The notes beneath the pieces were generated by a model. The model was given only the letters and a program-made list of their open reading frames with translations. It was not told the DNA's origin and made no database searches. A stretch of DNA of 43,530 nt from Sedimenticola sp. (GTDB taxonomy: Bacteria; Pseudomonadota; Gammaproteobacteria; Chromatiales; Chromatiaceae), in NCBI GenBank assembly GCA_027083925.1, contig JALWMK010000106.1, positions 1 through 43,530 on the forward strand, given 5' to 3'. Shown one piece after another: positions 1-7,630 of the stretch. Both the position numbers and the translations under genes were made by a program. Positions within the stretch are counted from its first letter, which is position 1, and each line of letters starts with the position of its first letter.

Positions 1-48
1 TTCAAATCGCATTTTCCGGATCTCCTGTAGCAATTCTGTTGGTCTCAT
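1..48 (-). CDS. Transposase N-terminus (ISNCY/IS1202-like), cut by window edge
   Basis: Only the first 16 codons are inside the window, reading leftward from the ATG at 48-46. The peptide begins MRPTELLQEIRKMRFE, and a strong AGGAGGTGA ribosome site sits just upstream. From memory this resembles the start of ISNCY-type transposases, which continue into a helix-turn-helix; that is recognition, not a search. The position directly inside a broken attC site supports a mobile element. The rest of the gene lies outside the window. Confidence 0.5.
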   Translation of the reverse strand, partial: MRPTELLQEIRKMRFE

Positions 49-112
49 AATTCACCTCCTGGGTGAATATGAAACCGGACAGATCGTGTGCTACAACTCC
101 GGACAGTTTATT
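1..112 (-). mobile_element. End of an insertion sequence inserted into an integron attC site
   Basis: The leftward transposase start at 48 and its leader occupy this stretch. The leader carries two related copies of a CTGTCCGG motif about 30 bp apart (79-106 region), as expected for terminal or transposase-binding repeats. The sequence beyond about 113 returns to attC. The exact terminus cannot be fixed with only one end visible. Confidence 0.45.
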
Positions 113-133
113 TGCTCGTAACACTTGTTATGT
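113..133 (-). other. attC7 remnant, interrupted by insertion sequence
   Basis: Read leftward, this gives CACATAACAAG and a few more bases, a canonical R'' box and L'' arm. The box GTTATGTGC on the plus strand (127-135) matches the start of cassette 7 at 1028-1020. The rest of the site is missing and insertion-sequence DNA follows, so the site was split. Confidence 0.65.
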
Positions 134-287
134 GCTGATGTTGCAATGAAGCTAGAAACGCACCACAATATACACGGCTTCTGGCATTTCTTTTTTTCCT
201 AGCCGTACTGCCCATTTCTAAAAGTCTAGAGTATGGGGCTTTGGGCGGCAGCAGGGCTTCCCCTGTTTTAATATGGAGAATTTCGAA

Positions 288-395
288 ATGGCTTGTAAAA
301 AAACCACTAGAACCGTCCGTACTGGCAAGAAACCTGGGCCAAAAACCGTTCCTGTGAAACCTCACAAACGGTCTACGCCAAAGAAATGCAAGTAA
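288..395 (+). CDS. Small Lys/Arg-rich protein, 35 aa, opposite to its cassette
   Basis: ATG at 288 with GGAGAA seven bases upstream opens a 35-codon frame ending in TAA at 393-395. The product has about 14 Lys/Arg residues, many Thr and Pro, and Cys at positions 3 and 34. The core GKKPGPKTVPVKPHKRSTP looks like a low-complexity nucleic-acid-binding tail. It reads against the direction of the cassette array, so it would need its own promoter. I do not recognise the family. The composition is too structured to look random, and the good ribosome site supports translation. The overlapping leftward frame at 108-365 looks like its shadow. Confidence 0.5.
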   Translation: MACKKTTRTVRTGKKPGPKTVPVKPHKRSTPKKCK

Positions 396-412
396 TGTGA
401 AGGAAAAGAATG

Positions 413-997
413 TCAGAAGCCACCTCCCTCGTGGTGAGAATTTAGACTGCTTCTTAGATTGTGCAATGATCTAATGGCTCTATTGCAGTCGCTCATTTCA
501 TATATTTGCCATTCCCTTTGCTCCAAAAGCATTAAATGCTCACCATTTCGGACATCCCAGACCCAATCTATATCTTCTTTTAACTCTTCAGAAATAATAT
601 TTTCTTCTACAAGAACCTGACTTCGGTATTTGTAATTTTGGCCACCGCCACGCCTGCCTCTAAGATAGCACTTTGTTACACTTTCTATTATTGATCCAAT
701 TGAACTGATTTCTTTCTTTATAAGCATTTCTTTTGCTTGACCACTAATGTCTGTCCGATTTAGCAACCAGCGAAAAAGATCCGTTAGTAATAATGTATAT
801 GCGATATTACTTCTTAAAGTGTGGTCAGAAATAAATAGATACTTGTTTCTATGCTCTACGCAAGTTCGTAGGTATCCTCTTGGAAATCTAACAACTCCAT
901 TTTTGTGATTTCGTTCGCCTAGATAATCATTTATTGCCTGTATTTTTTCTCCTACTTCCGTAGCAACTAAAAATAATTCATTGTCATTTTCTATCAT
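413..997 (-). CDS. Hypothetical cassette protein, possibly HEPN-like
   Basis: This is the 194-aa product of cassette 7. The frame extends upstream to 1057, but that part lies in attC6, so the ATG at 997 (MIENDNELFL) is preferred; its ribosome site is weak. The protein looks mostly helical and ends with a segment WDVRNGEHLMLLEQREW. An Arg-Asn pair followed by His in the C-terminal half recalls HEPN RNase or dimerisation domains, but the spacing is not the textbook one, so this is only a hint. There is no signal peptide or membrane segment. Base composition is A+T-richer than the chromosome to the right, consistent with capture from elsewhere. Confidence 0.6.
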   Translation of the reverse strand: MIENDNELFLVATEVGEKIQAINDYLGERNHKNGVVRFPRGYLRTCVEHRNKYLFISDHTLRSNIAYTLLLTDLFRWLLNRTDISGQAKEMLIKKEISSIGSIIESVTKCYLRGRRGGGQNYKYRSQVLVEENIISEELKEDIDWVWDVRNGEHLMLLEQREWQIYEMSDCNRAIRSLHNLRSSLNSHHEGGGF

Positions 998-2601: not shown

Positions 2602-2904
2602 TCACATGCATCTATCTAACTCTTGTTTCAATATGACAAGTTGTGATTCAATCTTTGCGCTATTTTCCTTTTCAATTGGCATAAATGTCTCGTTGCTACG
2701 ATCAGAGAGGCGTTGGCAGTGCTCAGCAAGGTCGAGTAGAATAGAGTAGACAGTGCTGGTCTTTTCAAGACCAATAATTGTTCTCCAACGAACAATAGCT
2801 GCGCTCGATAACCCGGTTAATTGGTAATTGCTTGGTAGCTGAGCGTTAACTACAGAGAGAACACGCCGCTCAGCCGTAACTCTGTTGAGAAATGTATTTG
2901 TCAT
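2602..2904 (-). CDS. Small helical protein, third gene of cassette 4
   Basis: The 100-aa product begins MTNTFLNRVTAERR. The ATG at 2904 is preferred because GAGGAGAAA immediately precedes it. The frame overlaps the 3' end of the nucleotidyltransferase gene by 35 bp, so the two are translationally linked. The sequence is predicted helical and ends in a Lys/Glu-rich probable coiled coil (about 75-98). No family is recognised. Tight coupling to a nucleotidyltransferase suggests a partner or small regulatory subunit, but HEPN motifs are not visible. Confidence 0.65.
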   Translation of the reverse strand: MTNTFLNRVTAERRVLSVVNAQLPSNYQLTGLSSAAIVRWRTIIGLEKTSTVYSILLDLAEHCQRLSDRSNETFMPIEKENSAKIESQLVILKQELDRCM

Positions 2905-3517
2905 TTTCTCCTCGCAAAGACTCAATCCATGGGCTCAATGGGGCACGCGTAACTTTGTATACTACCGAATTAATATCGATTTCAATCTCTATGCCTCTTG
3001 TAGAGCTGTGCCTGGCTAACATGGCTGCTTTATAAGCGGAATAATCTAACGGGCATGGGATTGGGAGCCTGTAAGGTGCATCACTGGAAAAGCATGGCTT
3101 TTCCATAAAAGCCCAAGATGCCGACATCGCAATATCACGAATAGCCGTATAAACGATTCCCAATTCATAAATAACGCTCTTGGTTCCATTTTTCAGTTCA
3201 TAAAGCGCTTCCTGGAGCAACTCCTCTAGATCATCGATATCCTTATTCATGGTCGCATACGGTGCGGGCGCACCTAAAGCATCCAAAAATGGGGTGTCCC
3301 GGGTGCTAAAAATACACTTAGCCTCAAGGTGCAAATGCCACGCGAAAAGCCGGCCTTGAGAAAAGTACTCACCAATTATTTTGGGATCATAAACGCTCCA
3401 GTTAATTGGAAAATTCGAGCGATCATCAGTAAATGGTAATGCCAATATATCAACATCTGACGTTGGAGATGATTCACCTCTACAAAGTGAGCCAAATACA
3501 TAGATTTCGTGATTCAT
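2870..3517 (-). CDS. Nucleotidyltransferase-fold protein (Pol beta superfamily)
   Basis: The 215-aa protein opens with the nucleotidyltransferase signature: Gly-Ser at 9-10, then SPTSDVDIL with metal-binding Asp21 and Asp23. The third acidic residue is not obvious; the stretch HLHLEAKC is the likely strand. The C-terminal half (about 95-170) is helical, resembling the all-alpha domain appended to aminoglycoside adenylyltransferases and MNT/HEPN pairs. Its ATG overlaps the stop of the pentapeptide gene by four bases (ATGA), so they are one operon. Candidate activities are AMP or NMP transfer to a protein, RNA or small molecule; the substrate is unknown. Resistance is possible but nothing specific supports it. 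Confidence 0.8.
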   Translation of the reverse strand: MNHEIYVFGSLCRGESSPTSDVDILALPFTDDRSNFPINWSVYDPKIIGEYFSQGRLFAWHLHLEAKCIFSTRDTPFLDALGAPAPYATMNKDIDDLEELLQEALYELKNGTKSVIYELGIVYTAIRDIAMSASWAFMEKPCFSSDAPYRLPIPCPLDYSAYKAAMLARHSSTRGIEIEIDINSVVYKVTRAPLSPWIESLRGENDKYISQQSYG

Positions 3518-6893: not shown

Positions 6894-6909
6894 CCAAATG
6901 TTCTATAGT
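6881..6909 (+). promoter_or_regulatory. Probable sigma-70 promoter of the integrase gene
   Basis: TTGTAA at 6881-6886 and TATAGT at 6904-6909 are spaced by 17 bases. The -10 overlaps a possible GTG start at 6908, which argues for the ATG at 6953 as the true integrase start. Confidence 0.5.
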
Positions 6910-6952
6910 GGTTCTCCATAAGCAATTGGTTTCGCAAGGAGTGCTTAACCCA

Positions 6953-7630
6953 ATGGATTCTGTCGACCCACGTGTTGAACGGTTTTGGATGAATTATGCT
7001 GCCGTGCTGAAGCAATTCCGCATTTCTGGCAGCGCAATTCCCTGGTATCAGAAGCATATTCAGGGGTTTATCAACGATCACCCTTCTGTGCGCCTGGGAT
7101 CCCACACGCCTAAATCGTTGCAGGCCTGGCTGGAAGATATCGGTCGAAATCCAGCGGTACAGGACTGGCAGTTCTGCCAAAAAGTCGATGCTTTGCGCTT
7201 GTTGTTTGCACACTTCCTGAAACTGGATTGGGCGCTTCGATTTGACTGGGATGGCTGCGCAGGCAATGCCCAATCCCTGGGGAAGGATCATCCTACGGTT
7301 GCGCGGACTTATGAGATGATCGACAAAGCGGTCAGCGACCCACAAAATCCACTTGGAAAGGCGTTTCCTGATATTTATCGCAAGTTTCTGGTCGTCATGC
7401 GACTGTCTGATTACTCTCCGAATACCGAAAGGAGCTACCTCGGATGGATCAATAGATTCCTTGTTTTTCATCACCGCAAATATCCTTTTGACTGCTCGGA
7501 ACCGGAAGTTGCTTCCTTTTTAGAACATTTAGCCATAAAACGCAAAGTTTCTGGGGCTACTCAGGGGCAGGCACTCAATGCGCTGGTATTCTTTTTCGCA
7601 CGGGTTCATGCGCGGAAAATACCGCCATGA
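6953..7630 (+). pseudogene. intI: Integron integrase, truncated after the N-terminal domain
   Basis: The frame gives 225 aa from ATG 6953 (AAGGAG 11 bases upstream). Residues about 1-130 form an N-terminal extension seen in some long environmental IntI proteins. About 140-225 is the SAM-like DNA-binding domain of tyrosine recombinases, with SPNTERSYLGWINRFLVFH and ATQGQALNALVFFFARV typical of IntI. The protein stops there. The catalytic domain with its Arg, His, Arg and Tyr residues is absent in all frames before rlmH at 7668. It probably lost its 3' half by deletion and cannot catalyse recombination. It might still bind attI. Orientation and position relative to the cassettes are canonical. 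Confidence 0.88.

Follow-up and report, generated by a model that had tools for sequence, protein, structure and literature searches.

A mobile family of mini-genes encoding cationic proteins within a folded RNA, represented in an integron cassette of Sedimenticola sp.

Introduction

An open reading frame of 35 codons, read against the integron cassettes around it, raises the question of whether so short a sequence is a gene at all and, if it is, what kind of unit it belongs to. The ORF lies at positions 288-395 of the window, the name used here for the whole stretch of 43,530 nucleotides from Sedimenticola sp. that was analysed. The initial annotation saw in it a possible regulatory or toxin-antitoxin gene that might pair with its neighbour. 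The observation proves to be larger than that. The ORF represents a new family of mobile mini-genes, and the conserved folded RNA and the several kinds of mobile element that carry it had been missed.

A short gene under protein-level selection

Translation from ATG 288 to the TAA ending at 395 on the plus strand yields MACKKTTRTVRTGKKPGPKTVPVKPHKRSTPKKCK, a protein of 35 amino acids with 10 Lys, 3 Arg and 5 Pro, cysteines at positions 3 and 34 and no acidic residue. A Shine-Dalgarno sequence, GGAGA, is found at 275-279 (+), 13 nt upstream of the start, and is predicted to be 0.39 unpaired in the full fold. Both the composition and the good ribosome site had been described in the initial annotation. 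A start at ATG 273 was rejected, since the longer frame would overlap the GGAGA site, which makes 288 the better start. The orientation was also read correctly: the cassette genes are on the minus strand and the ORF on the plus strand, as is an integrase remnant at 6908-7630.

The small-protein homology search that had been suggested at the outset was run and returned about 50 conserved homologues from many phyla and from viral contigs. A scan of 84,980 species genomes for DNA encoding KKPGPKTV gave 54 stretches, of which 40 encode the mini-protein in frame by our reading and 14 were dropped as chance matches; searches of genomes supplied the rest. The closest relative within the bacterial family of the window is a 35-aa protein with 71% identity. 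By record title the carriers are mostly Alpha- and Gammaproteobacteria, with Planctomycetes, Chloroflexi, Zixibacteria, Nitrospinaceae, Vampirovibrionales, Scalindua and others also represented. The viral contigs comprise L081, L086, L094, L095, six copies of one sequence including L084, an altered version (L088) and L119-L122. The family is rare wherever it was counted, with 4 of 210 genomes in the window's family, 3 of 369 in its class and 1 of 149 in the Erythrobacter family, the last being the centre genome itself.

The motif KKPGPKTV.V..H.R..P is kept across the homologues and most have the terminal cysteines. In an alignment of 33 sequences the invariant residues are K14, K15, P16, G17, P18, K19, T20, V21, V23, H26, R28 and P31, where invariance from K14 to V21 follows from the selection of rows found with that very pattern. 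Among 40 complete mini-proteins a cysteine occurs within the first 10 residues in 39 and within the last 6 in 37, and the composition is 37% Lys plus Arg and 1% acidic. Selection acts on the protein: across 42 loci, further loci lacking the full block being left out, in-frame pS is 0.763 and pN 0.229 (ratio 0.30), with ratios of about 2 in both other frames. Outside K14-V21 the values are still 0.771 and 0.304. A chance ORF is ruled out by the homologues together with this selection, and a leader peptide by the lack of a constant downstream gene in the same direction. The suspicion of a real gene is thus borne out by the 40 in-frame stretches and the pN/pS ratio, and as judged from conservation 288-395 is a gene. 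In two loci (L079, 1351-1554, and L122) the KPGPKTV motif occurs twice in tandem within one mini-protein ORF.

The mini-protein has no match in Pfam, NCBIfam, PHROGs or PDB sequences, and the RNA unit described below has none in Rfam. Neither tblastn, whose low-complexity filter may hide so basic a query, nor a DNA search found the mini-protein in named plasmids and phages. The strings PGPKTV and KPGPKT occur in no text of the literature searched, and no description of the family was found there. By its translated sequences 288-395 is therefore a member of an undescribed family of 31-39 aa proteins that are Lys/Arg/Pro-rich and nearly free of acidic residues, with a Cys near each end and an invariant His. 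One of the viral carriers, L081, also contains an sRNA-Xcc1 (RF02221) at 818-902.

A folded RNA closing round the ORF

The ORF is embedded in a predicted folded RNA of about 260 nt in which an arm of the 5′UTR pairs with an arm of the 3′UTR. This closing stem, P1, consists of a 5′ arm at 176-197 (+), beginning GGCTTCTGGCA, and a 3′ arm at 399-421 (+), ending TGTCAGAAGCC, and is supported by arm pairing, the fold and the consensus structure. It is followed by a 5′UTR hairpin P2 at 199-248 (+; 199-205 with 242-248 and 211-220 with 227-237) and by P3 at 250-267 (+), a consensus-structure hairpin directly before the ribosome site. Fold and consensus place a further hairpin within the ORF at 345-372 (+), in the codons of the KTVPVKPHKR region.

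Two other loci (L002 and L023) first revealed that the sequences flanking the ORF are complementary to each other, the letters themselves differing between the two loci. The P1 pairing is kept across loci despite sequence change, with the arms about 40-130 nt upstream of the start and 5-60 nt downstream of the stop. In 30 of 43 loci the 5′ arm pairs with its own 3′ arm better than do 95% of cross-locus pairings, a test that is conservative for related loci, which share arms. Against dinucleotide shuffles the mean folding z is -5.05, with z at or below -2 in 38 of 43 loci; the window scores -4.52 and none of 200 shuffles folds as well. The 43-locus tests omit duplicates (L051, L023, L065, L089), truncated loci (L028, L024, L045, L073) and loci with a short flank, and the start of L022 was set by hand.

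The consensus of the window with its relatives in SAR92 (L053) and Kangiella (L041), alignment A5, contains 76 pairs with 89.8% of cells paired. Two-sided changes occur in 16 of the 76 pairs, where column shuffles give 7.7 and slid structures 0-4, and 7 of the 17 pairs of P2 are among those that vary in this way. The covariation claim concerns this alignment of three sequences, from which the structure itself was derived. A plain MAFFT consensus fold of 11 sequences collapsed, as did those of groups G4 and G6.

The fold combines 5′-3′ pairing of the mRNA with a partly hidden ribosome site, as in a type I toxin mRNA. The occlusion is modest: the site is on average 0.29 unpaired against 0.40 for the whole RNA, which is the only control, and the start codon, at 0.50, is half open. 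Folding of the antisense strand is nearly as favourable (mean z -4.37), so the strand is assigned from the ORF and not from the fold. Counts of P1 mismatches, with 79 G-T and 62 A-C, are about equal and leave the strand of the fold undecided. The ORF is thus predicted to lie within a self-contained folded transcript, whose UTR arms form a stem closing round it and whose hairpins precede the ribosome site. That the mini-protein family and its fold are real we regard as very probable.

A structure of this kind could itself be the main actor, with the RNA encoding its own binding peptide and both forming a small regulatory or protective ribonucleoprotein that involves no toxin. The fold extends into the ORF (helices 5-8), RNA and peptide always occur together, the peptide is basic and acid-free, and the unit is autonomous and mostly single-copy (one match in 15 of 16 carrier genomes, two in one). 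However, apart from short motifs the RNA shows little sequence conservation, whereas the peptide is clearly selected as a protein, and the helices inside the ORF show few two-sided changes. An RNA-centred function is judged unlikely.

Candidate promoters and flanking sites

The initial annotation expected a reverse cassette gene to bring its own promoter. A weak candidate, TTGCAA-N17-CACAAT, lies at 141-169 (+); it falls below the threshold of the promoter scan, while its -35 box, 35 nt upstream of P1, is at a position that recurs in the family. With the loci aligned on the outer end of P1, 10 of 24 dereplicated loci have a TTG box 36/35 nt upstream of the 5′ arm (corrected p 6e-7), and 7 of 27 have one on the other strand, 35/34 nt ahead of the 3′ arm (corrected p 0.001); the anchor motifs were chosen by eye in both cases. 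A looser promoter test was mildly positive (p 0.02 and 0.01). The position fits a -35 box if an RNA starts at each P1 arm. An own promoter for the gene is thus probable, and the unit perhaps has promoters on both strands. In the window, no antisense -35 box stands in a suitable position.

The flanks of the unit are enriched in GANTC on both sides (7.1 versus 2.3 per kb), mostly in alphaproteobacterial loci. GANTC is the CcrM site in Alphaproteobacteria, and the enrichment is possibly linked to methylation-controlled expression.

An integron cassette cut by an insertion sequence

The assignment of the ORF to cassette 7 holds up, with attC sites carrying complementary R″ and R′ on both sides. 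The attC that precedes the cassette (1137-1022, -) ends in GTTATGTGC at 1022-1030, and the R″ of the cassette's own downstream attC at 131-139 (-), GCACATAAC, is its perfect complement. This second attC is cut by the end of a repeated insertion sequence at 1-123 (-), the same 123-124 bases of which recur on three other contigs of the genome, C151, C135 and C104. The contig stops at position 1 of the window because this repeated end cuts the attC at about 123.

Elsewhere in the array, the 240-aa integrase ORF at 6908-7630 (+) retains only the N-terminal SAM-like domain (PF13495), the catalytic domain being absent before the next gene, and the integron therefore looks unable to recombine by itself. 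In a neighbouring cassette a gene with a nucleotidyltransferase domain at 2602-3517 (-) overlaps a small second ORF (2602-2925), and the two may be an MNT/HEPN-like pair.

Carriage by unrelated mobile elements

Neighbours within 2.5 kb were listed for 48 mini-gene loci. In six of these (L025, L040, L050, L052, L054, L071) an IS1595 transposase (PF12762/PF12760) adjoins the gene, the transposases sharing 32-60% identity with one another. Twenty carrier genomes (about 65 Mb) contain 11 IS1595 transposases, three of them within 2.3 kb of the mini-gene where 0.02 would be expected by hand arithmetic. Three complete elements with perfect 8-bp duplications enclose the gene. Two are IS1595 elements, one of 2404 bp with RhuM cargo (L050) and one of 3009 bp with a DNA methylase (L071), and the third, of 2715 bp, is of the IS1 family (L074). 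Further terminal-repeat candidates (13-14 of 20 positions, one mismatch in the duplication) were judged to be chance, and an ungapped search for terminal repeats found none. In three distant genomes (L040, L054, L071) an IS1595 transposase, a DNA N6/N4-methylase and the mini-gene recur together. Other neighbours are MqsR/MqsA-Panacea (four related loci), AbiE (L022) and a HEPN protein (three loci). The genome of the window has no IS1595 transposase.

Such carriage could mean that the unit is a mobile DNA module, with inverted arms and mirrored promoter-like boxes serving as DNA-recognised ends and the peptide aiding or regulating transposition of its carrier. The adjoining IS1595 transposases, the three complete elements, the GANTC on both flanks and the near-equal G-T and A-C mismatches agree with this idea. 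It is nevertheless quite improbable. Most loci have no transposase nearby, and the carriers are of unrelated kinds. The terminal repeats of the three complete elements are separate from P1, whose arms are therefore not supported as transposon ends, and the arms differ from locus to locus, which the ends of a single transposon family would not do. A clean empty site was sought in Erythrobacter and not found: the relatives G789 and G792 have a cytochrome gene where G577 has the unit, so that a gene appears replaced rather than a site invaded. The interval concerned, between adenosine kinase and purD, holds a small cytochrome-type gene in L126 and L127 and the mini unit in L037. By its distribution the unit appears usually single-copy and patchy, carried by different mobile elements (IS1595, IS1-family, integron cassette, viral contigs).

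A linked but optional HEPN-fold neighbour

The gene at 413-997 (-), 194 aa from ATG 997 and convergent with the mini-gene, had been called possibly HEPN-like. It matches no Pfam or PADLOC family above cut-off. Its structure, modelled from four sequences (pLDDT 80, pTM 0.79), gives a best VIA-align match to 6m6w at Z 13.0 over 127 residues and 2.8 Å, a score that helical bundles can reach by arrangement alone. The first 21 matches are HEPN or HEPN-like proteins, toxins among them, and stand above the rest, and nearly all of the top matches, from Z 13.0 to about 9, are HEPN; the best Foldseek match has an E of only 0.0096. The protein is thus predicted to have the HEPN helical-bundle fold, in line with the original suggestion. 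The usual HEPN catalytic motif is R-x4-6-H, whereas all four family members have R-N-x-x-H, that is R-x3-H (RNGEH in the window).

The two genes are convergent neighbours in three loci, those of the window, SAR92 and Kangiella, with 41-69% identity between the HEPN proteins, and the homology of the window to the SAR92 locus covers both genes. Only 2 of 369 gammaproteobacterial genomes have credible matches to the HEPN protein, and because the family is so rare the linkage in three loci is unlikely to be chance. A further apparent two-gene genome (G418) was discarded, its HEPN match being 48 residues inside an unrelated-looking ORF. The HEPN gene is absent within 2.5 kb in 45 of 48 mini-gene loci, and four HEPN loci (L114, L118, L123, L124) have no credible mini-gene. 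The proposed pairing therefore stands as a linkage and falls as an obligate partnership; on gene order the association is linked but optional.

A role for the mini-protein or its RNA as antidote to the HEPN protein, or as its partner, draws on the predicted fold and on the convergent linkage in three loci, and is quite improbable. Each gene usually occurs without the other, convergent genes cannot make the operon that is usual for a type II pair, and other mini-genes adjoin MqsRA, AbiE, RhuM or DNA methylases. Among the relatives of the HEPN gene, that in L114 (36-2067) lies directly beside an ApeA-type HEPN defence gene. Those on two Alteromonadaceae plasmids (L123 and L124, 2495-4073) are followed at the same spacing by a hypothetical gene of 290 aa, which is perhaps the true partner.

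A possible type I toxin-like module

A secreted or surface cationic peptide of the bacteriocin kind, stabilised by a terminal disulfide, would suit the strong positive charge and the conserved terminal cysteines but is very improbable, as there is no leader or signal segment and no conserved exporter or immunity gene adjoins the unit.

The best explanation, which we put forward tentatively and which could well prove wrong, is that the 288-395 unit acts as a type I toxin-like module in which the folded mRNA and an antisense RNA exert control and the product is hydrophilic and cationic. The folded mRNA closed from 5′ to 3′, the partly hidden ribosome site, the possible antisense start and the mobile carriage all point to control of this kind. 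The full-length mRNA would be folded shut and silenced by an antisense RNA from the mirror-image end. In the window the same might be achieved by HEPN-gene read-through, since a transcript extending past that convergent gene would by the layout be antisense to the mini-gene. Processing, or loss of antisense control, would release a burst of cationic peptide, which may bind RNA, DNA or the ribosome in the cytoplasm, a target suggested by composition only. The burst could lead to stable maintenance of the carrier element or to the arrest of an infected cell. Most known type I toxins are hydrophobic, a property that is usual and not universal; with 37% Lys plus Arg and 1% acidic residues, the mini-protein is not a hydrophobic membrane-acting toxin. 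Selection could also act at the level of DNA, because the G-T and A-C mismatches are similar in number and the antisense strand folds nearly as well. Many loci, moreover, show no sign of a mobile element, which speaks against the reading.

The fuller picture, taken as a whole, is less likely than not. It would be a mobile module of about 300-400 bp whose mirrored promoters give a pair of complementary RNAs with similar folds, and one RNA of the pair would encode the cationic Cys-His-Cys mini-protein. Such a type I-like module would target nucleic acid or the ribosome and spread across phyla as cargo of transposons, integrons and phages.

Strong conservation across phyla in a family that Pfam, NCBIfam, PHROGs and Rfam all lack illustrates what gene finders overlook among proteins shorter than 40 aa; the family of the HEPN neighbour is another candidate still to be named. 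Should the type I-like reading prove true, a non-hydrophobic cationic class would be added to the antisense-controlled toxins, and such modules would move as cargo of IS1595 transposons, integron cassettes and phages. Reverse integron genes would also find an explanation, as they come with a folded transcript of their own and are independent of the integron promoter.

Comparison with known systems

Screens of structured RNAs in bacterial intergenic regions turn up peptide-coding sORF motifs with predicted structure, as described in main-text passages of PMC6429828, and the mini unit is likewise a peptide-coding RNA with predicted structure. The sequence of the mini family was not found among the sORF motifs in those passages. 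HEPN toxins of the HepT/MntA type are resembled by the neighbour 413-997 and not by the mini-protein: the neighbour shares their predicted fold (Z 13.0 to 6m6w). It differs in its R-x3-H motif (RNGEH), and its cassette has no MNT antitoxin gene.

Hok is encoded by a short ORF within a stable mRNA that folds so that its 5′ and 3′ ends pair and its ribosome site is occluded. In Helicobacter AapA, according to PMC6733600, a 5′-3′ interaction keeps the mRNA from being translated, and the toxin is also subject to repression by an antisense RNA. The mini unit resembles AapA/IsoA and Hok/Sok in its short ORF within a folded mRNA, its paired ends and its partly occluded ribosome site. It is also like them a small single gene on mobile or accessory DNA, with a possible antisense promoter in cis. 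It differs in its product, which is hydrophilic and cationic and contains Cys and His, where theirs is hydrophobic; antisense RNA and toxicity are putative here, and the RNA has no Rfam match.

The likeness to IS1595 passenger-gene transposons lies in the adjoining transposase and in the complete elements of 2.4 and 3.0 kb, which are bounded by 8-bp duplications and hold the mini-gene together with further cargo. The unit is found as well in an element of the IS1 family, in an integron cassette, on viral contigs and in plain chromosomes. With this range of carriers it is not a part of IS1595 as such.
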